Origin: Halobacteriovorax sp. GB3
GTDB taxonomy: Bacteria; Bdellovibrionota; Bacteriovoracia; Bacteriovoracales; Bacteriovoracaceae
Assembly (NCBI RefSeq): GCF_028649655.1
Contig: NZ_JAQSLN010000003.1
Coordinates: 558,001-622,000 of the forward strand
Length of the DNA stretch: 64,000 nt
Direction: 5' to 3'
The notes beneath the pieces were generated by a model. The model saw nothing but the letters and a program-made list of their open reading frames with translations, was not told the origin of the DNA and did no database searches. This document shows positions 2,347 through 62,306 of the stretch, in pieces; within the stretch, counting starts at the first letter, position 1; each line of letters opens with the position of its first letter. A program made the position numbers and the translations under genes.

Positions 2347-4785
2347 CTACGCCTTTTGATACTTTGGTAATCTTGAAATCATCAAAATTGGAATAATCAA
2401 AAAGAAGGCCCCAAAATAATATGGAGTATGAGAACCGTAGCGCCAATAAATGACAGAAGCAACCACAGGACCAACAACTCTTGCTAAGGCCCCAAGAGAT
2501 CTAAAAATACCAATACTCTTTCCTTGGTATTGAGATGGCGTATACATACTCACAAGACTCGTTAGACAAGGTATTGCCATTGAAGATCCCATTGCTAAAA
2601 AGAAGAGACCTAAATAGAGGATGCCAATAGAGTAAGTCTTACCAATTAAGAGTAATCCAGGAATAAGAAGGATTAGTCCCATAACGGCCATCTTCTTCTC
2701 ACCTACTTGATTGGCCTTTCTACGAACAACTCCACCTTGAACTAAAGCAATGATCAATCCGATAAAAATGAACATATAAGCGTTATCCATTGAAGAGAAG
2801 CTCATTCTTTCTACTGCAAGAAATGTCAGAGTAAACTCCATTCCAGAGAAGGCCGCTAAGAAAAAGAAATGTCCAAAATTTGTTAAATTCACACCAGCAT
2901 AAGGGAGTGGCTTAAATAGTTTAATCGGATTGAACGTTCTATCCGTTTCGTGAGTACCACGTTTATCCTCTGGAAGTGTTTCTTCAAATTTTTTCCAAAT
3001 ATAGTAAAAGTTAAAAAACGACAAAATGGCAGCAAGTGCAGCGGGTAGTGAAAATGGGTTCACACCAATTTCTTTAAGAGCGGGATAATATGAAGAAAGA
3101 TCCCACATAGAAAGAATTCCACCGAGGGCCGGTCCAATAATGAAACCAAGAGCAAAGGCAATACCAATAATGGCCATTCCCTTTGAGCGGTTCTCTTTAG
3201 AGGTAATATCAGCAACAACAGCTGTAGCAGTTGAAATATTTCCTCCCATAATCCCGCCGATAAAACGAGCTGCGATTAAGAGAGTAAATGATCCTGAGAA
3301 AAACCAAAGAACATAACTTAAGGCCAAGCAAAAAACTGACCAAAGGAGAATTGGCTTTCTTCCAAGTCTATCAGAGAGTGTTCCCCAAATAGGAGCTGCA
3401 ATAAATTGTAGTAAACTATAAAGAGCTCCAAGAGCACCACCAAAGAGAACAACAGAGTTCATCGTCTGCATTCCACCGGTATTGGCCCAAGTTGAAATCG
3501 TATTAAAGATCAATTGTAAAAAGTAATTATCTCCATCCACTGTCAGATAGTGTTTTGCAAGAGCTGGAAACAGAGGAAAAATAATTGAAAAACCGACGAG
3601 ATCTAAAAAGAGAGTTAAAAAGATGATCTTTAACGTGAGCTTTGTTTGATCACTTAAAGGCTCGGCCTTCATTTCCTGTTGTGGCATATCCATATATGTA
3701 TCCTTTTCCATTTGATAAAAATCTTCTTTACGTGTTTTAACATCGGCCAGACTTTGATTCTTAATAAAGCCAGCAAAGTCATCACACCACTTATCATCAT
3801 CATTTAAACATGGAATAAGGTGAACATCCCCACCCCACTCTTTCGCTTCAACCTTAAGCTCATGTCCAAGTTCATCAATTGTTTCTAAACAATCGGCGAC
3901 AAAACTTGGTGCATAAACGGCCAAGTTCTTCTTATTTTTGTTTTCGATTAAATCTTGAACATACTCATCAGTATAAGGAGTTAACCATTCTTCAGAACCA
4001 AAGCGCGATTGAAAAGTCATATGAACTTCATCGGCATTGGCATGTTTTAAACGATCACGAATGAGAACAAAGGTTTCATAGCAGTGCTGATAGTACGGGT
4101 CTTTTTTAAAGAGAACTCTTCTCTTTGGAATCCCATGAAAAGACATGATCAGACCATCAAACTGACCTTGCTCCTTAAGTTTAGCGATATGCTCGTCAAC
4201 GATACGAACACTATTATCGATAAAGGCCCTTGAACGGTGAAAATTTGTCATTACTTTAAGATTTGGTATTCTCACTCTCTTTTCAAGAACACTAGTAAGC
4301 CCATCAATCCCAGAGGCAATAGTACTTTCTGAATATTGTGGGAAAAGAGGAACTGCAAAGAGTTCACTGGCTCCATTTTCTCTCTCATCGAGATCTTCTT
4401 CCCAGTCTGTATAGACTTCGTGAACACGTGGTGATGAAAGTAAAAAAGCATGATTGACTTCAATATCGTCACAGTCTTTAAGGCGAGCATCAATTTTCTC
4501 ACTAAAGCTTTTTGTAATTTCGATTAAAGGAAAACTTCGACCATCCCAAATTCTCGAATAAAGAGCAGCAGATCTTTTTGGCCTAAATGGAATGACAAAG
4601 AGGTTGAGAATAATCTTCCAAACGAAGGGATTAATATCCACAACTCGCGGATCGCCAAGGAACTCTTTGAGATATGCGCGCACATCAGGAATTTTTGGAG
4701 ATTTTGGAGATCCAAGTTGCACAAAAACAACTTTTGTTTTACCCTCTTGGGTTCTTTGGCTTAGTTCCCGTAATTTTTTCTGCAC
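2347..4785 (-). CDS. hemH: Ferrochelatase fused to an MFS transporter
   Basis: One open frame of about 812 residues encodes two proteins. Residues ~15-345 are a full-length ferrochelatase, the enzyme that inserts Fe(II) into protoporphyrin or coproporphyrin. Seen are an LGSP start motif, LFPQYSEST, SFHGIPKR with the catalytic His (H217), FQSRFG and DCLETIDE with the catalytic Glu (E301). After a ~35-residue linker, residues ~380-812 form an MFS transporter of about 12 membrane segments with the loop motif GTLSDRLGRKP of the TetA/Bcr-like branch. I chose GTG at 4785 because GGAAAGG lies 6 bp before it. A TTG at 4842 gives 19 more unconserved residues. No frameshift or internal stop separates the halves. 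The catalytic part would face the cytoplasm next to the transporter. The exported or imported molecule is unknown; heme or porphyrin is an inference. Confidence 0.9.
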   Translation of the reverse strand: MQKKLRELSQRTQEGKTKVVFVQLGSPKSPKIPDVRAYLKEFLGDPRVVDINPFVWKIILNLFVIPFRPKRSAALYSRIWDGRSFPLIEITKSFSEKIDARLKDCDDIEVNHAFLLSSPRVHEVYTDWEEDLDERENGASELFAVPLFPQYSESTIASGIDGLTSVLEKRVRIPNLKVMTNFHRSRAFIDNSVRIVDEHIAKLKEQGQFDGLIMSFHGIPKRRVLFKKDPYYQHCYETFVLIRDRLKHANADEVHMTFQSRFGSEEWLTPYTDEYVQDLIENKNKKNLAVYAPSFVADCLETIDELGHELKVEAKEWGGDVHLIPCLNDDDKWCDDFAGFIKNQSLADVKTRKEDFYQMEKDTYMDMPQQEMKAEPLSDQTKLTLKIIFLTLFLDLVGFSIIFPLFPALAKHYLTVDGDNYFLQLIFNTISTWANTGGMQTMNSVVLFGGALGALYSLLQFIAAPIWGTLSDRLGRKPILLWSVFCLALSYVLWFFSGSFTLLIAARFIGGIMGGNISTATAVVADITSKENRSKGMAIIGIAFALGFIIGPALGGILSMWDLSSYYPALKEIGVNPFSLPAALAAILSFFNFYYIWKKFEETLPEDKRGTHETDRTFNPIKLFKPLPYAGVNLTNFGHFFFLAAFSGMEFTLTFLAVERMSFSSMDNAYMFIFIGLIIALVQGGVVRRKANQVGEKKMAVMGLILLIPGLLLIGKTYSIGILYLGLFFLAMGSSMAIPCLTSLVSMYTPSQYQGKSIGIFRSLGALARVVGPVVASVIYWRYGSHTPYYFGAFFLIIPILMISRLPKYQKA

Positions 4786-4885
4786 AAGACACCTTTCCAC
4801 TACAAAATTATTATGATCTAAGTTATGTTGAGAATGACTCAAATATCACGTAACATATCAAATTTTAAATACTAGGACTAGGAAA

Positions 4886-8932: not shown

Positions 8933-9364
8933 TTAAGAAAGAAAGCTTTTGAGCATCCAGTTTTCTTTTTCAAGGAAGGCCACTTGCTCATCACAAAAAG
9001 CAACAGTCGTTGAGTCATCTTCTGAAACTTCGGCAAGTGACTTAAATTCCTTTCTAAGAAAATCAAAATCAGAAAGAAGATTTTTAGCAACGTAAGCCGC
9101 ATCAAAATCAGTCGATCCGTCTTCTTGTAAACGACTTAGTTCTAGTACTTGCTTTAAAGTAACAATTGGCTTTCCCTCTAATTGAAGAACTCTCTCAGCA
9201 AGCTCATCATAGATTGTAGCAAAGTGGTTGTAATACTCTTCTGTCTTATCGTGCATACCAAAGAAGTATGGCCCTTTTACATTCCAGTGATAGTTTTGAA
9301 TTTTAGTATACAAAACGTGGATGTCGGCCAGTAGCAAGTTCATTGATTCTGTTGTTTTACTCAT
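8933..9364 (-). CDS. dps: Dps-family ferritin-like DNA protection protein
   Basis: 143 residues of the Dps/miniferritin family, which form 12-mers that oxidise Fe(II) with hydrogen peroxide and shield DNA. The inter-subunit ferroxidase ligands are visible: H26 in NYHWNVKGP, H38, D53 and E57 in YDELAERVL. There is no long basic N-terminal tail, so DNA binding of the E. coli kind is not expected. An ATAG-N7-CTAT element of the OxyR type lies about 90 bp upstream. A GGGGG-rich ribosome site precedes the ATG. Confidence 0.93.
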   Translation of the reverse strand: MSKTTESMNLLLADIHVLYTKIQNYHWNVKGPYFFGMHDKTEEYYNHFATIYDELAERVLQLEGKPIVTLKQVLELSRLQEDGSTDFDAAYVAKNLLSDFDFLRKEFKSLAEVSEDDSTTVAFCDEQVAFLEKENWMLKSFLS

Positions 9365-54457: not shown

Positions 54458-54623
54458 GAGCGGACATTAACAGAATTTAACACCCTTGCAAAGCCGTTTA
54501 GATAATCTTATAAACATGAGCTATATCATTAAACTTATTACAAAACTGTGACAAATAAATACAGGCCCCAAGCTATATTGGGCTAAACCACGCAACCTTT
54601 ATTTATCGCATCTGGAACATTGT

Positions 54624-55553
54624 ATGATCCAAGGTCTAAAATTAATTAATTTACCACCAGCAAGCCCTTTGGCAAAAGAGCCTTGTGGCGATGCTTTTAT
54701 TTTAAAGACATGTCAAAGAACGATGATCATAGGTCACAATATCGTCCCTCTTCTCTATGTCGATAGTGCTCTTAAAGAAACTCAATATGATGTCTTTAAC
54801 GAGGAAGATGCTTATCTCTATTTACTTGAGACAATCTGCGGATTAAAGAGCAAAGTTCTCGCAGAAAACGAAGTGACGGGCCAATTTAAAGACGCTTATC
54901 TTGAATACCTCGCTCACGATCAGAGAAACCCTTTAATTATGAATGTTCTAGAAAAGCTCTTTAAAGATGCCAAAGAAGTTCGTTCACAATATCTCTATGC
55001 CGTAGGACAACAATCCTATGCAGGGTTGTCTCGTCAGTTTTTAAAATCTAAAAAGAACTCGGGTCGCGTCCTCTTAGTAGGTTCAGGAAAATTAACAAGA
55101 GATCTCATCAAACTTCTCGATAAAAATTATGAGCTCTTTGTTACAGCTCGTAATGAGCAAAAGATCAAAGAACTCTTGAAAGAATACCCAGATAAGATTA
55201 TTAAGACTGTGAGCTGGCTCGATTATTCGGCCTATGAAACTTTTGAGTTAATTGTAAATACTATTGGAGCTGAAACAATTCTTTTCAATGAGAACTTCTT
55301 TAAAAATTGGTCTGGGGCCAATGGTGAAGTTTTTGTCGATCTTGGATCTCCAAGTGTTCTTAAAACAAACTTTACGCAAAAACAGGGACTCTACAGACTC
55401 CCTGATGTCTTTGCCCACGCCAATTACCTGAATGAACAAAAAGATCTGAAAGTTAAAAACGCGCGCGCTCATATTGAAAAACTAGTTATTAAAAGAAAAA
55501 AATCATTCAGCCTAAATTACCCTTTTGGCTGGGAGGACCTACAATTTGTCTAA
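54624..55553 (+). CDS. hemA: Compact glutamyl-tRNA reductase
   Basis: 309 residues. GluTR reduces glutamyl-tRNA to glutamate-1-semialdehyde, the first step of heme synthesis. The catalytic Cys (KTCQR, C30) and the GLKSKVLAENEVTGQFKDAY stretch are kept, and RVLLVGSGKLTRDLIKLL is the NADPH-binding domain. The enzyme lacks the first ~20 residues with the usual HKTAP-x2-R(E) motif and the ~90-residue C-terminal dimerisation domain (E. coli 418 residues). No longer frame restores them. Function is supported by being first in an otherwise complete heme operon. Overlaps hemC by 8 bp. Confidence 0.88.
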   Translation: MIQGLKLINLPPASPLAKEPCGDAFILKTCQRTMIIGHNIVPLLYVDSALKETQYDVFNEEDAYLYLLETICGLKSKVLAENEVTGQFKDAYLEYLAHDQRNPLIMNVLEKLFKDAKEVRSQYLYAVGQQSYAGLSRQFLKSKKNSGRVLLVGSGKLTRDLIKLLDKNYELFVTARNEQKIKELLKEYPDKIIKTVSWLDYSAYETFELIVNTIGAETILFNENFFKNWSGANGEVFVDLGSPSVLKTNFTQKQGLYRLPDVFAHANYLNEQKDLKVKNARAHIEKLVIKRKKSFSLNYPFGWEDLQFV

Positions 55554-57096
55554 CTCAAAAAAGCACTACAAAATCGGAACACGTGGCAGCCTTCTTGCCC
55601 TCACTCAATGTACACAAGTAAAAGAAGAACTCGAGGCCCTAACGGGAGATGAATTCACGCTTGAAGTTATTAAGACTCAAGGAGATATCATTGTCGATCG
55701 TCCTCTGTGGCAACTTGAAGGAAAAGACTTCTTTACTAAAGAACTCGACCAGGCCCTTGTTGAAGGTTCTGTTGATCTCGTGGTTCACTCGTATAAAGAT
55801 CTTGGTTCTGATCGCCCAGAAGAATTTGAACTGGCGGCAATTACTAAGAGGGCCTACGCAGAGGATATTCTCTTCATCAGAAAAGATGTAAAAGAAAAGC
55901 TTCACACAATGGACAAACTCATTGTTGGAACCAGTTCACCAAGAAGAATTGTAAATATTGAAAAGTCACTTTCAAAATATATTCCTGCAAAAAAAGACAT
56001 TGCAGTTGAAACAAAAATGCTAAGAGGAAACGTAAACACTCGTCTAGCAAAGCTAAATGACAAGCAATACGATGCCATTGTACTCGCATGGGCAGGAATC
56101 GAAAGACTGGCAATTTGTGATAAAGCAAAAGAAGATCTCTTACCACTAATTAAAGACCTCGACTTTATGATTCTCCCTCACGGAGACTTCCCTCCAGCGG
56201 CTTCACAAGGAGCCCTTGCCATCGAATGCAAAAAGGGAAGAGATGATAACGGAGAATTATTAGAGAAACTCATTAAGATGAATGATAAAACAACGATCTC
56301 TGAAGTTCAAAGAGAGCGCTCGGCCTTTACTGGCTATGGCGGAGGATGCCACCTTGCCGTAGGTGTTCACGTTAAAAAAGTTGGAGACTTCTATCTTCAC
56401 ACTCACCGTGGAAGTGTTGATGACAAGGTCATTTCTGTTTCAACAACAGAAGGTGCCTTTGAAACTTTTGAAGGAAATAAAAAGAACGTTTTTATCGGTC
56501 TGCCAAAAGATAAAATGGATGACGACATTCTTTGCGATGAGTACATTTCAAAGACCCTGTTAAATGTCGATCTAAGTGACAAGAATTTAGAAGATGTCTT
56601 TGCCACATCTAATTACACAATCCCTGCCCTTAAAACTGCGAGATCCTATAAGGCCCTCTTTGCAGCAGGCTCTAAAACACTACAACAGTTAACTAAAGAA
56701 GGTTTTTGGGTAAATGGTTCATCAGAAGGTCTCTCGGAAGATTATCTTAACCATATGCGCTCTTCAGCACTTCTTTCTTTATTTCTTGGGCAAAAGAGAT
56801 CCCTTACGGCCCTATCAAACGACGAAGCAACAAGCACTGAAGGAGAGGTTTTAGCCTGTTATCAAAGAGAAACTTTGAAAGTCAGTGACCAGTATCTTGA
56901 GCGCCTTGAAAAGTGCGAAGTCTTCTTTTGGACGAGCTTTCATCAATATCAAGAATTCACAAAACTTTGCCCTTCTATTAAGAAGAAGTTTCACGCAACG
57001 GGACTTGGCAAAACCTATAAAAAGTTTCAAGAAGAAGGGATAAGAGTAAGAGCATTTGCGACACTCAGTGAATTCAAAGAATGGATTAATAAATAA
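55546..57096 (+). CDS. hemC: Porphobilinogen deaminase-uroporphyrinogen III synthase fusion
   Basis: About 516 residues from TTG 55546, with GGGAGG 8 bp upstream. Residues ~10-310 are HemC: IGTRGSLLALTQ, VVHSYKDL, GTSSPRR, RGNVNTRL, AASQGALAIEC and GGCHLAVG with the dipyrromethane-cofactor Cys. Residues ~355-516 look like a divergent HemD, with the second lobe clear (EVFFWTSFHQYQEF and ATGLGKTYKKF). Together they turn four porphobilinogens into uroporphyrinogen III. HemD sequences are weakly conserved, so this half is less sure. Starts inside the hemA end. Confidence 0.9.
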   Translation: MSNSKKHYKIGTRGSLLALTQCTQVKEELEALTGDEFTLEVIKTQGDIIVDRPLWQLEGKDFFTKELDQALVEGSVDLVVHSYKDLGSDRPEEFELAAITKRAYAEDILFIRKDVKEKLHTMDKLIVGTSSPRRIVNIEKSLSKYIPAKKDIAVETKMLRGNVNTRLAKLNDKQYDAIVLAWAGIERLAICDKAKEDLLPLIKDLDFMILPHGDFPPAASQGALAIECKKGRDDNGELLEKLIKMNDKTTISEVQRERSAFTGYGGGCHLAVGVHVKKVGDFYLHTHRGSVDDKVISVSTTEGAFETFEGNKKNVFIGLPKDKMDDDILCDEYISKTLLNVDLSDKNLEDVFATSNYTIPALKTARSYKALFAAGSKTLQQLTKEGFWVNGSSEGLSEDYLNHMRSSALLSLFLGQKRSLTALSNDEATSTEGEVLACYQRETLKVSDQYLERLEKCEVFFWTSFHQYQEFTKLCPSIKKKFHATGLGKTYKKFQEEGIRVRAFATLSEFKEWINK

Positions 57097-57105
57097 GAGG
57101 AATAT

Positions 57106-58374
57106 ATGACAAAACAAACAGAGCTCTTTGAGCGTTCAAAAAAATTAGTACCAGGTGGAGTTCACTCTCCTGTTAGAAGTTTCAAAGGTCTTCACATCAC
57201 GCCACGCTTTATTGAAAAAGCGAATGGTGCATACTTTAGCGATGTTGATGGAAAAGACTATATTGATTTCTGTATGAGTTTTGGTCCACTTATCCTTGGA
57301 CACAAAGACGAAGAAGTAGAAAAAGATTTACAAGGGGCCTTATCTCGCGGTTGGAGTTATGGTGCTTGTGAACCCTACTCGCTAGATCTTGCTGAATATC
57401 TTTTAGAAAAACTTCCTTTTGTCGATCAACTACGCTTTGTAAACTCTGGAACTGAAGCCGTGATGACAGCACTTCGCCTAGCTCGAGGTGTGACAAAGAA
57501 AAATAAAATCATCAAATTTAATGGCTGCTATCACGGTCACGTCGATTCAATGCTTATTAAGGCAGGCTCTGGTCTAGCAGGAAGTGCAGAGGCTTCATCT
57601 GCGGGTGTACCAGAAGGGATTGCAAACGACACTCTTATCTTGGAACTTGGTGACAAAGAAGAAGTTATCAAATGTTTTGAAGACCATAAAGATCAAATTG
57701 CGGCCATCATCATTGAGCCACTACCGGCCAATAATGGTCTCATGATTCAAGATCAAGAATATTTAGAATTTCTAAGAGAGATCACAAAACAAAATAATGC
57801 ACTTTTAATTTTTGATGAAGTCATTTCAGGTTTTAGAGTGGCCTTTGGTGGTATGGCACAGAAAACGGGAATTCGCCCGGACATCGTGACCTATGGAAAA
57901 ATCATAGGTGGTGGTCTTCCAGTTGGTGCTATTGCTTCAACAAATGAGATCATGTCAAACCTCGCCCCTCTTGGAAATGTCTATCAAGCGGGAACTCTGA
58001 GTGCCAACCCTCTTGCCATGGTTGGTGGTCTTTCAACGTTGAAAAAACTAAATGACAAGAGTTACGAAACACTAGAAGAAAATGGAAAGAAACTAGAGTC
58101 TATTTTTAGCAAATGGCTAAATGAATTCAATGACGGTCAATTTAGTGATTACAATCTTACGAGATCTGGATCGCTCTTTTGGGTTCACCCAGGAAACTCT
58201 ATTCAAAATATTAATCAAATGCCACAAAACTTAAATGAAAGATTCTACGAGCTTTTTGAAGTTCTTCTCAATAAGGGGATCTATCTTTCACCAAACGCAT
58301 ACGAAGTTGGCTTCCTAAGCCTCTCTCACGATCAGTCCGTTTTAGATGATCTTGAAAAGAGACTTTGGAGCTAA
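57106..58374 (+). CDS. hemL: Glutamate-1-semialdehyde aminotransferase
   Basis: 422 residues. PLP enzyme making 5-aminolevulinate; motifs VNSGTEAVMTALRLAR, FNGCYHGHVD, FDEVISGFR and YGKIIGGGLPVGA with the PLP-Lys K265. AGAGGA precedes the ATG; hemCD ends 9 bp before it. Together with hemA it is the C5 route to heme. Confidence 0.97.
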   Translation: MTKQTELFERSKKLVPGGVHSPVRSFKGLHITPRFIEKANGAYFSDVDGKDYIDFCMSFGPLILGHKDEEVEKDLQGALSRGWSYGACEPYSLDLAEYLLEKLPFVDQLRFVNSGTEAVMTALRLARGVTKKNKIIKFNGCYHGHVDSMLIKAGSGLAGSAEASSAGVPEGIANDTLILELGDKEEVIKCFEDHKDQIAAIIIEPLPANNGLMIQDQEYLEFLREITKQNNALLIFDEVISGFRVAFGGMAQKTGIRPDIVTYGKIIGGGLPVGAIASTNEIMSNLAPLGNVYQAGTLSANPLAMVGGLSTLKKLNDKSYETLEENGKKLESIFSKWLNEFNDGQFSDYNLTRSGSLFWVHPGNSIQNINQMPQNLNERFYELFEVLLNKGIYLSPNAYEVGFLSLSHDQSVLDDLEKRLWS

Positions 58375-58388
58375 GAGAGGATATTTAA

Positions 58389-59294
58389 TTGACTCAAAAA
58401 CGCGTTTTTCCAATTCTTGCAACACTGTGGATCACAACTTCCTTGGCCCTTGGCTCATGGTGGTTATACCTACTTGTGATGTATGAAGATAAATTAGAAA
58501 AATTAGGAATGACACTTCCAGAGCTTGGTTTCAGGCCGAATCTGGTTCGCATGCTAAAATGGGAGGGAACAACATTAATCCTTCTCATTACATTCCTGTC
58601 TATTTCACTATTTATTCTTTATTACAAAGATCAAAGAAAAACCAAGGCCCTTCAAGCATTCTTTGCAGGATTAACTCACGAGCTGAAAACTCCTCTTGCA
58701 TCGATTCGCCTGCAAGCAGAGGTCATTAACGATACAATTGAAGAGAAATATAAAGAAGATAAATTACTAGATACACTCACAGATCGACTCATTGAGGATA
58801 CCGGAAATCTTGAAACACAAATGGATAAAATTCTCCAACTTTCAAGAATTGAGAGAGGTGGTAACCTAAACCCAGCTCCTGTTGATCTTATGTCTGTTCT
58901 AAGAACGACAATTAACAAGAGAGCAAGGAATTTAAGTGTTGAGATTGATCAACGTATTGAAGATCCAATTATCTTGGCCGATTTATTTGCACTCGAATTA
59001 ATTTTAAAAAACTTATTTGAAAATACAAAAGCTCACACAGAAGAAAAAAAGGCCAACATCAAAATTGATCAAAAAGAAGATACTATTATTCTTGTCTATA
59101 ACGATGGTGGAACTTTCCAAGGAGAGATTGAAAAGCTTGGAAACCTTTTTTACAAGTTCAATTCGGCCAAAGGCTCTGGAATTGGACTTTATCTCATTAA
59201 AAAATTAATGGAAAAAATGTCTGGAAGCCTTGTCGTAGAAAATAAGAGCAATCTTGTTTTCACCCTTTATTTCAAGAAGGAAACCGAGAGCTAA
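58389..59294 (+). CDS. Membrane sensor histidine kinase in the heme operon
   Basis: 301 residues from TTG. Two membrane helices (~8-30 and ~61-79) with a short ~30-residue periplasmic loop (DKLEKLGMTLPELGFRPN), then the HisKA domain (LTHELKTPLASI, phospho-His) and an HATPase_c domain (N-box NLFENTKAHT, G1 YNDGG, G2 GSGIGLYLIKKL). It is complete and probably active. The small sensor loop suggests membrane- or intramembrane sensing. 14 bp after hemL and 1 bp before its regulator. Confidence 0.93.
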   Translation: MTQKRVFPILATLWITTSLALGSWWLYLLVMYEDKLEKLGMTLPELGFRPNLVRMLKWEGTTLILLITFLSISLFILYYKDQRKTKALQAFFAGLTHELKTPLASIRLQAEVINDTIEEKYKEDKLLDTLTDRLIEDTGNLETQMDKILQLSRIERGGNLNPAPVDLMSVLRTTINKRARNLSVEIDQRIEDPIILADLFALELILKNLFENTKAHTEEKKANIKIDQKEDTIILVYNDGGTFQGEIEKLGNLFYKFNSAKGSGIGLYLIKKLMEKMSGSLVVENKSNLVFTLYFKKETES

Positions 59295-59295
59295 T

Positions 59296-60000
59296 ATGGG
59301 GCAAAGTGGAAAGATTCTCATCGTAGAAGATGAACAAAACTTGGGATTCACGCTCAATGACTATCTCAATGGTCTAGGGCACACCTGCAAACTGGCAACC
59401 TCTGCTAAAGAGGCCAGAGAACTCTTCAAAGATTTTGCTCCAAATATCATTCTCATGGATATCGGGCTTCCCGATGGAAGTGGCCTTGAGCTTGCGAGAG
59501 AATTTAGACTTCTTAGAAAAGACTTTGTTCTTCTCTTTTTAAGCGCTCAAAATGACCCGGACACTCGTGTTGAAGGTTTAGAGATCGGTGCTGAAGACTA
59601 TATTACAAAGCCTTTCGCCTTGAAAGAATTGGTGTTGAGATTGAAGCGTATTCTTAGTTCACAAGACCTCAAGCAAACTTTTCCCGATGAAATCACTCAT
59701 GGAAGTCTTCGCATTTGGTTTAAAAAATTCGAAGTTCAAGATGGAAGTGGGAAAGTTCTCGCTCTTCCTCAAAAGGAATGCGCGATTCTAGAGCTCCTCT
59801 ATCAAAAAGCGGGTGAGGCTGTTGATAGGAATGAAATTATTGAAAAAATCTGGGGCGCTGATAAGTACCCTAGTAACCGCACAGTTGATAACTATATCGT
59901 GCGTCTTAGAAAATGGATGGAAACTGATGAGCAAGGAATTCTTGATATTCAGTCCATTCGCGGAATTGGATATAAATTAGTCATTCTACATAAGGATTAG
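59296..60000 (+). CDS. OmpR-type response regulator in the heme operon
   Basis: About 234 residues from ATG 59296; GAGAG precedes it. Receiver: VEDEQ, phosphoacceptor in ILMDIGLPDGSG, LSAQND and TKPFALK. Winged helix: LPQKECAILELLYQKAG, NRTVDNYIVRLRKWM and IQSIRGIGYKLV. It pairs with the kinase just upstream and precedes hemE by 3 bp, so both are co-expressed with heme enzymes. Confidence 0.95.
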   Translation: MGQSGKILIVEDEQNLGFTLNDYLNGLGHTCKLATSAKEARELFKDFAPNIILMDIGLPDGSGLELAREFRLLRKDFVLLFLSAQNDPDTRVEGLEIGAEDYITKPFALKELVLRLKRILSSQDLKQTFPDEITHGSLRIWFKKFEVQDGSGKVLALPQKECAILELLYQKAGEAVDRNEIIEKIWGADKYPSNRTVDNYIVRLRKWMETDEQGILDIQSIRGIGYKLVILHKD

Positions 60001-60003
60001 AAA

Positions 60004-61038
60004 ATGGGACTTTTTAACAATAGACAACAACAAGATGGCAAAGAGATCGTTCCAGTTTGGTTTATGAGACAGGCCGGGCGCTACCATTCACACTATCAGA
60101 ATATCAAAAAGAAAAGTAACTTCATGGAGATGTGTAAAGATCCAAAACTTGCCCAAGAAGTAACGCATGGACCTCTTGATGAATTTAACTTCGATGCGGC
60201 CATCCTCTTTAGTGACCTTCTCTTTCCACTAGAACATTTAGGAATGGGACTGACATACGCACCAGGGCCAAAACTAGGTTTCACACTAGAGCAGACAGAG
60301 GACCTAAAAAAACTATCTCCCCTAGCACCAGCTGAAGAATTTTATGCTTTCCAAGGTGATGCTTGTGCTCTTTTAAGAGAAAGTATGCCTGAGTACAAAA
60401 CACTTTTAGGTTTTGTAGGTTCACCATGGACTCTTTATACTTATGCTTGTCAAGGATCTCACGCCGGAAACCTGACACCTTCTAAGAATGGATTTTACGA
60501 TGGAAGATTTGCTGGTTTTTGTGAACTTCTACTTCCAAATCTTTTAACAGAAATGCGTGTTCAGGCCCAAAATGGTGCTGATGCCATCTGCTTATTCGAC
60601 ACAGCAGTTGGTGAATTAACCAAAGATGATTTCTGTGAATTTGTTCTTCCAAAAATAAAAGAAGTAACAGAGAAATTTAAATCAGAATTTCCTGACAAGA
60701 AAATTGTTTATTATTCTAAGTTAACTCACATTGATTACCTAGAAATGATCGATGATAAAAATATCGACGTCCTTGGTATTGATTGGCGTGTTAATATCGA
60801 AGATGCACTCAATGCGCTTTCTGACAGATACTATATCCAAGGAAACCTCGATCCTTCTCACCTTCATTTACCATGGGAACTTCTAGAGAAAAAATGGATG
60901 GCCCTTTGGGAGAAAGTAGAGAGAACTGGAAAAGCAAATCGCTGGATTTGTGGACTTGGTCACGGTGTTCTTCAACATACACCAGAAGAGAATGTTAAAA
61001 ATTCTGTTGCCCTTATCCACGAGAGATTTCGCTACTAA
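60004..61038 (+). CDS. hemE: Uroporphyrinogen decarboxylase
   Basis: 344 residues. Motifs: PVWFMRQAGRYH (substrate-binding Arg), AILFSDLLFP with the catalytic Asp, GFVGSPWTL, FDTAVGEL and the late GLGHGVLQHTP. Converts uroporphyrinogen III to coproporphyrinogen III. Its last base overlaps the hemN start. Confidence 0.97.
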   Translation: MGLFNNRQQQDGKEIVPVWFMRQAGRYHSHYQNIKKKSNFMEMCKDPKLAQEVTHGPLDEFNFDAAILFSDLLFPLEHLGMGLTYAPGPKLGFTLEQTEDLKKLSPLAPAEEFYAFQGDACALLRESMPEYKTLLGFVGSPWTLYTYACQGSHAGNLTPSKNGFYDGRFAGFCELLLPNLLTEMRVQAQNGADAICLFDTAVGELTKDDFCEFVLPKIKEVTEKFKSEFPDKKIVYYSKLTHIDYLEMIDDKNIDVLGIDWRVNIEDALNALSDRYYIQGNLDPSHLHLPWELLEKKWMALWEKVERTGKANRWICGLGHGVLQHTPEENVKNSVALIHERFRY

Positions 61039-62306
61039 TGGATGAGCAAAGACTCTATGAGAATCTTTTAAAGTACCACTCGGCCGGTGGCCGTTTCACT
61101 TATTTCCCAAGAAAATCACAATGGGAAAACAAGGTAGAGATCTCTCAAATTGAACATTCAATTAAAAACATTAAGGGAAGTGCCTATCTCTATGTGCACA
61201 TCCCTTTTTGTCAGAGCCTTTGCACTTTTTGTGGTTGTAATATAAAAGTTACCTCCGATAGAGATCTCGTCGAACACTACATCGAGGCCATAAAAGCACA
61301 GTGGCAACACTACCTAGAGTTAAACCCTACACTTGAACTACAGGGTGTTTACTTTGGCGGGGGTAGTCCAAATTTCTTAGGTGTAAAGGATCTAGATCTT
61401 CTCTTTGATACTCTTGGAGTAACGAAGAAGACGCCAATTATTCTTGAACTTGACCCGCGACGAGTTCAGGAGACACTCATTGATTTTCTTAAAAGTTACA
61501 ATGTAGAACGGGTCATTCTTGGTTTGCAAGACATTGATCGCAAAGTTTTAAAACAAGTTAATCGCGATCAAGATCAGGAAGAAATGAGTGCTGTCATTCA
61601 CGCACTCAAGCAATTGAAAGGTGTTGATATAACGGCAGAGCTTATTTACGGTCTCCCACATCAACAGAAGCAAAATCTTGAAAAAGCGGTGGAATTCTAT
61701 TCCCAATGTGGGATAACAAGCTTTCAACTCTACCCCCTCGCACCAGTGCCATGGCAAAAGGCCAGTCAAAATGCTTTTGGAGTTTATTGTCCACTTTCAA
61801 CTAAAGAATTATACGAAGTATACCTCGGAGCAATTAAGGCGCTTGAAAAATTAAACTTCGAACACATAAACTTTGGTCACTGGCAACAAAGTGAGCTTTC
61901 AAAACGCACTTCATTTCAAAACAGAACCATCATGGGTAATATGAACTACACCATAGACTCACTGATTGGACTTGGCCCATCGGCGATTTCGAAATTGGAA
62001 GGGCTCTTTTTTCAAAATGAATCGATTTATGACAAGTATCTCTTTCAAGCGAAGCAGAGGAAGTTGAATTTTCAGATGACTCATAGGCAAAGTGAGCAAG
62101 AAAAAGAAATAGATCAACGCATTAATGAAATCCTCATAACGAAACGAATTCCAAAAAGCCTTTTACAAAAGTCTGAGCTCACACAATTGATGCTTCGTGA
62201 CAAGGTCATCATTGAGTCTCAAAACGACTATCTCATCGATAGTTTCGGCCTCCACTTTCTCAAGTACATCCTAGAAGAGCTCACTCGCTCTTTAGCATCC
62301 AAGTAG
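61038..62306 (+). CDS. hemN: Oxygen-independent coproporphyrinogen III oxidase, HemN type
   Basis: 422 residues of radical SAM type. The HemN-specific cluster C-x3-C-x2-C-x-C is seen as CQSLCTFCGCN (C58, C62, C65, C67), following YLYVHIPFC. GVYFGGGSPN and GLQDIDRKVLKQVNR are other family motifs. The specific C-x-F-C-G-C pattern separates true HemN from HemW-like proteins. It makes protoporphyrinogen IX without oxygen. Last gene of the operon. Confidence 0.93.
   Translation: MDEQRLYENLLKYHSAGGRFTYFPRKSQWENKVEISQIEHSIKNIKGSAYLYVHIPFCQSLCTFCGCNIKVTSDRDLVEHYIEAIKAQWQHYLELNPTLELQGVYFGGGSPNFLGVKDLDLLFDTLGVTKKTPIILELDPRRVQETLIDFLKSYNVERVILGLQDIDRKVLKQVNRDQDQEEMSAVIHALKQLKGVDITAELIYGLPHQQKQNLEKAVEFYSQCGITSFQLYPLAPVPWQKASQNAFGVYCPLSTKELYEVYLGAIKALEKLNFEHINFGHWQQSELSKRTSFQNRTIMGNMNYTIDSLIGLGPSAISKLEGLFFQNESIYDKYLFQAKQRKLNFQMTHRQSEQEKEIDQRINEILITKRIPKSLLQKSELTQLMLRDKVIIESQNDYLIDSFGLHFLKYILEELTRSLASK

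Follow-up and report, generated by a model that had tools for sequence, protein, structure and literature searches.

A predicted HemKR two-component system and its hem-box in the heme biosynthesis operons of Bdellovibrionota

Heme-linked two-component systems

The closest described relative of the system presented in this article is HemKR of Leptospira. In L. interrogans, the kinase/regulator pair is placed between hemL and hemE, and hklep/rrlep mutants of L. biflexa are heme/5-aminolevulinic acid (ALA) auxotrophs with lowered hemAEL (Louvel et al. 2008, PMC2266917). According to Imelio et al. 2024 (PMC11426443), HemR recognizes a hem-box of the type TGACA-N6-TGACA, and its phosphorylated form (P-HemR) activates hemA and represses hmuO in L. 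biflexa. The cue in this species is ALA or a product, and the system is shut off by the phosphatase activity of HemK through T102 (PMC11426443). Deletion of hemKR does not simply lower hemA, which points to composite control (2024 study, PMC11426443). Further boxes occur at exbB1/D1 and beside a PhuR-like receptor gene, i.e., at TonB-linked uptake functions (PMC11426443). For Bdellovibrio bacteriovorus, a hem-linked pair was remarked upon with data not shown (PMC2266917). A sequence-only reading of the DNA described below had held that no known heme-sensing kinase belongs to a synthesis operon; the position of the pair in L. interrogans contradicts this, as does the linkage remark for B. bacteriovorus (both PMC2266917).

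Herein, we describe a histidine kinase (HK) and response regulator (RR) pair within a heme operon of Bdellovibrionota. It is very likely a HemKR system whose phosphorylated RR activates its own operon from a hem-box, and heme uptake as well, with a shut-off triggered by product. New here are the occurrence of the box throughout the phylum, its class II geometry, a conserved WW/E motif in the membrane part of the kinase, and a tree that places the Leptospira operon inside Bdellovibrionota.

Architecture of the hem operon

The window, meaning the whole stretch of DNA analyzed, comprises 64,000 nucleotides of Halobacteriovorax sp. GB3 (contig NZ_JAQSLN010000003.1, positions 558,001 to 622,000). 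The source genome, which shares its genus with G001, comprises 3.62 Mb in 9 contigs; a search for related loci gave Bacteriovorax sp. BSW11_IV as the sole match. According to ORFs and Pfam, an HK and an OmpR-type RR sit between hemL and hemE in the order hemA–hemCD–hemL–HK–RR–hemE–hemN, all head to tail on the plus strand.

The first gene, hemA (54624–55553; 309 aa; GlutR_N and Shikimate_DH in Pfam), encodes a short glutamyl-tRNA reductase, the C-terminal dimerization part of which seems to be missing. It is diverged, reaching 50 bits against TIGR01035 with its cut-off of 210, and matches the equally short hemA of L. interrogans (1.2e-21). It is followed by hemCD (55546–57096; Porphobil_deam in Pfam), which carries a C-terminal part in the HemD position and matches the bifunctional HemCD of L. 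interrogans (1.9e-46). The hemC ORF probably encodes a protein of hemCD fusion length that starts at TTG 55546, since a GGGAGG lies at 55531–55536. Next comes hemL (57106–58374; Aminotran_3 in Pfam), a glutamate-1-semialdehyde aminomutase with 50.6% identity to HemL of L. interrogans. The HK gene (58389–59294; TTG start, 301 aa; HisKA and HATPase_c in Pfam) and the RR gene (59296–60000; 234 aa; Response_reg and Trans_reg_C in Pfam) precede the uroporphyrinogen decarboxylase gene hemE (60004–61038; URO-D in Pfam) and a hemN-type radical SAM coproporphyrinogen oxidase gene (61038–62306; Radical_SAM in Pfam), which match HemE and HemN of L. interrogans with 2.5e-79 and 2.5e-57, respectively. The corresponding L. 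interrogans locus (L114) consists of the short hemA, hemCD, hemB, hemL, HK, RR, hemE, and hemN, followed by hemG and hemH; hemB is not among the genes of the window operon.

The ORF calls leave gaps of 14 bp between hemL and HK, 1 bp between HK and RR, and 3 bp between RR and hemE, exactly as given in the sequence-only reading, which had also identified the kinase as complete. An intrinsic terminator is predicted in none of the tight junctions, and terminator-like matches stay below shuffle level (4 found versus 6.6 expected). That all seven genes from hemA to hemN are read as one transcript, as proposed in that reading, is very probable from the sequence. The pair is very probably cotranscribed with the hem genes and would feed back on heme synthesis.

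Further genes were noticed elsewhere in the window. A ferrochelatase is fused to a major-facilitator transporter in a single 831-aa protein (2347–4842, minus strand; PF00762 and PF07690), and no box was found at the promoter of this hemH fusion, where a second site for the regulator had been suggested. The window also encodes a bacterioferritin-like protein, judged by sequence alone (204–674), and a ferritin/Dps-like protein (8933–9364; PF00210).

The histidine kinase and the response regulator

The HK of the window shares 35% identity with HemK of L. interrogans from end to end, membrane part included, and the RR shares 40% with HemR, likewise end to end and with a common recognition helix. 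Within a plasmid collection, HemK is the clear best HK match with 137 bits, as opposed to at most 72 bits for other HKs among the matches listed. On this orthology, the pair is assigned to the HemKR two-component system. The best match of the receiver domain of the RR is PDB 4q7e, which we take to be HemR of L. biflexa and do not count as proof.

The HK is complete, with two hydrophobic helices, H97 in the motif HELKT, an N-box, and a G-S-G-I-G box. The phospho-accepting H97 and the threonine at H+4 (T101), the phosphatase residue, are both conserved. In the RR, D55 aligns with the phospho-Asp of HemR, and the recognition helix reads RTVDNYIVRLR. Hydropathy and alignment give the HK two transmembrane (TM) helices that enclose a short, hypervariable periplasmic loop of ~25 residues; Pfam recognizes no PAS or other sensor domain in the HK. 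In an alignment of 30 HK orthologs, E59 never varies, and W24, W25, W58, and G60 hardly do. WW24-25 lies in TM1 and E59 at the start of TM2, and HemK of L. interrogans has WW and EG at the equivalent places. The periplasmic loop of the Leptospira kinase was found to be replaceable and its membrane part to be needed (Louvel et al. 2008, PMC2266917). From these features, we infer that the signal is sensed inside the membrane; that WW24-25 and E59 are the residues reading it is a guess.

The same features leave some room for a pair that is HemKR by descent but responds to redox, oxygen, or membrane state instead of a heme precursor, a reading that we regard as unlikely. A hypervariable loop together with a conserved WW and E in the membrane would make a quinone or porphyrin cue possible, and an oxygen signal would make sense because HemN-type enzymes are oxygen-sensitive. 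It is countered by the lack of a PAS or comparable domain and by L. biflexa, where ALA turns the system off via the HemK phosphatase (PMC11426443). Of the role suggested in the sequence-only reading, feedback on heme synthesis is supported; the membrane redox state as signal finds no support.

The hem-box and promoter geometry

Upstream of hemA lies a predicted HemR-type operator, the hem-box TTACAAAACTGTGACA (54538–54553, plus strand), composed of the half-sites TTACA and TGACA around the spacer AAACTG. No other intergenic site of the window matches the motif exactly, and this one falls within 54458–54623, the region in which binding of the regulator had been anticipated. The box is one base off the published consensus (TTACA-N6-TGACA versus TGACA-N6-TGACA). 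Exactly 20 nt after the box follows the −10 hexamer TATATT (54574–54579, plus strand). No −35 hexamer occurs at the usual distance in this promoter, and a sigma-70 scan that requires one finds no −35/−10 pair. A possible third, degenerate half-site, TACAG (54560–54564, plus strand), continues the same 11-bp register, as read from the window sequence only.

Among 31 genomes bearing the pair, YKACA-N6-TGACA is present upstream of hemA in 28, and other spacings (0 to 15) give zero or one hit. For G010, the start of a CTACATTT site is visible upstream of hemA, clipped by the start codon chosen. The first half-site is mostly CTACA or TTACA, not TGACA, in the family of the window, and nearly all genomes outside this family have a perfect TGACA-N6-TGACA. 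A TAnnnT exactly 20 nt after the box is found in 20 of 29 promoters, with at most four at any other spacer; L. interrogans has TGACACTTCTTTGACA, 19 nt, and TATAGT. A −10 element at 20 nt puts the center of the box near −40.5. Activators of class II that belong to the PhoB/OmpR group have this layout.

It is improbable that the RR acts from the box as a repressor of the hem operon rather than as its activator. A site that overlaps the −35 region can block polymerase, and P-HemR does act as a repressor on hmuO in L. biflexa (PMC11426443). However, a promoter without a −35 at normal distance and with its −10 fixed at 20 nt from the box fits activation, and hemAEL fall in the hklep/rrlep mutants of L. 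biflexa, which need heme or ALA (PMC2266917).

As an independent check, the geometry was followed through 241 genomes with a strict pattern (box, N20, TAnnnT). Of the 150 sites listed, 80 share the strand of the HK (or hemL) and stand no more than 8 kb 5′ of it; their distances all fall between 2.4 and 5.4 kb, and 64 of these 80 are in genomes not used for motif definition. In a few genomes in which the HK position was not listed, that of hemL, or one directly 3′ of it, served as anchor. Among the genomes with the two-component system (TCS) that the strict pattern missed, 20 were inspected; a box stands at the right place in 16 of them, in perfect form in the Bdellovibrio-like ones, and two of the four without a box are on short contigs. 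The 16 include the full set of ten from a single Bdellovibrio-type genus, in most of which the −10 at 20 nt is TAAACC.

Conservation across Bdellovibrionota

At the hemL loci, the order hemA–hemCD–hemL–HK–RR–hemE, often with hemN, recurs in nearly all of the window's family, and five other families of the phylum show it as well. The conserved order hemL–kinase–regulator–hemE, proposed as a check in the sequence-only reading, is hence not due to chance. A tally of 241 Bdellovibrionota genomes, made by hand from search tables (thresholds 1e-30 and 1e-75), gives 170 with both HK and hemL, three with HK only, 32 with hemL only, and 36 with neither. Both coordinates were listed for 114 genomes; with three set aside that have the genes on different contigs, hemL and the HK share a strand in 111 of 111, with hemL as the immediate 5′ neighbor. 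Several relatives have hemB at the hem locus, in many of them between hemCD and hemL as in Leptospira. The locus of G012 (L071/L115) is split, with hemA 8 kb away; the lone hemA and the remaining hemCD–hemL–HK–RR–hemE operon each carry a hem-box.

The pair is absent from G017, G019, and G025, which keep the hem genes and have no box upstream of them; judged by the hemL tree, this corresponds to at least two losses. Orthology, operon order, the box with its geometry, and the disappearance of box and pair together can be read from the genomes directly. It is hardly credible that a generic passenger pair, co-expressed with the hem genes, regulates something else: the HK core is that of an ordinary HisKA kinase, of which the genome carries 31 matches, but the adjacency holds in 111 of 111 genomes, the HK is lost together with hemL or the box, and a box of the same regulator family precedes hemA across the phylum.

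A predicted wider regulon

In its own genome, the plain box has 26 matches versus 16 for the reversed pattern; hence, most of the plain matches are background. Requiring the spacer composition of the hemA type leaves four sites in the genome, including hemA. Another of the four lies 47 nt before the start of a gene for a TonB-dependent heme/hemoglobin receptor (G000:C3:109281–111296, minus strand; L142/L155), which has a Plug domain and scores 186 bits with TIGR01785, below the cut-off of that model. Here, too, an AT-rich hexamer (TATTTA) follows 20 nt after the box. Receptor orthologs were compared in seven relatives (G010, G011, G012, G015, G018, G035, and G036). The box is exact in the window genome (G000), G010, and G018 and has one mismatch in G036. 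It is missing in G012 and G035, which account for two of the six receptor orthologs from genomes with the TCS, as well as in G011 and G015, both without the HK. Most relatives have no TonB heme receptor gene. A PF01126 search detected no heme oxygenase, the counterpart of hmuO, in the genome, so by this measure the regulon differs from that of Leptospira.

Other sites were also encountered. A TesA-like gene is preceded by an exact box with a −10 (C1:353840), a single site that is probably due to chance. Three genomes from the same genus (G003:C1:577030, G087:C2:653818, and G091:C5:136885) share a second site with box and −10 (TTACATAAA..CTGACA...TATAAT); located upstream of a lipoprotein-like gene in G003, it is a possible extra target. 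At L118 (G023:C38:14026), box, N20, and TAnnnT precede the gene of a secreted protein that has a CxxCH motif for heme attachment.

Evolutionary history

When the sequences of hemL, HK, and RR are joined, the resulting tree has L. interrogans inside Bdellovibrionota together with G008, G049, G041, and G055 (100/100); the tree of hemL shows the same with lower support. Both readings are based on one Leptospira, Bdellovibrionota only besides, and a chosen root. They suggest, as a lead, that the entire operon was transferred between Bdellovibrionota and Leptospira. G008 (L095) is a genome of the window's family in which hemL, HK, and RR group with other families and Leptospira and not with its own family; this placement suggests that the operon moves between lineages. 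A more far-reaching and quite tentative scenario, which we consider possible but rather doubtful, is that HemKR and the hem-box arose in Bdellovibrionota as a switch for heme synthesis and uptake throughout the phylum and that the complete operon, with its regulator, later moved horizontally to Leptospira, with HemK sensing its signal inside the membrane via Trp-Trp and Glu59.

Proposed mechanism

The Leptospira experiments serve as the model for phosphotransfer, for activation, and for ALA or a product as the off-signal. When products of the heme pathway are low, the membrane kinase HemK would phosphorylate HemR. Phospho-HemR would bind the two 5-bp half-sites at 54538–54553 as a tandem dimer, stand in for the missing −35, and recruit RNA polymerase by class II activation. 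Herein, the whole operon would be raised, including the HK and RR genes themselves. Once a pathway product builds up, HemK would turn into a phosphatase (T101) and the operon would fall. Via the box at the TonB-dependent heme receptor, synthesis and uptake may rise together.

A TCS switch for heme synthesis would not be a speciality of Leptospira but a general rule in the phylum of the predatory Bdellovibrio and Bacteriovorax. The regulon, the promoter rule, and the conserved membrane residues can be tested in Bdellovibrio, which is non-pathogenic, or L. biflexa and bear on how HemK senses its signal. The observation that led to this analysis was right and stronger than stated; its claim of novelty was not.

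Comparison with known systems

HssRS and ChrSA/HrrSA of Gram-positive bacteria resemble the window in that two-component control is tied to heme. They answer external heme and drive its export or degradation. The window locus has no hrtBA-type exporter; the neighbors of the pair are hemA to hemN only. The pair of B. bacteriovorus has both the phylum and the linkage to heme genes in common with the window, and no box or regulon is described for it in PMC2266917. The one-line remark of 2008 has now become a tested case, with a DNA site shared with Leptospira.

HemKR of Leptospira (Hklep/Rrlep; LB014/LB015) is like the window system in the end-to-end orthology of HK and RR and in their position between hemL and hemE. 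The neighbors are also the same, namely the short hemA, the hemCD fusion, hemL, hemE, and hemN. The likeness extends to the hem-box, the geometry from box to −10, the phospho-His, the Thr at H+4, and the phospho-Asp. In contrast to Leptospira, the window lineage has neither hemB in the operon nor a PF01126 target, and the first half-site is YTACA in most of the window's family. On the side of uptake, the TonB heme receptor gene itself carries the box in the window genome, whereas the boxes of L. biflexa are located at exbB1/D1 and beside the PhuR-like gene.
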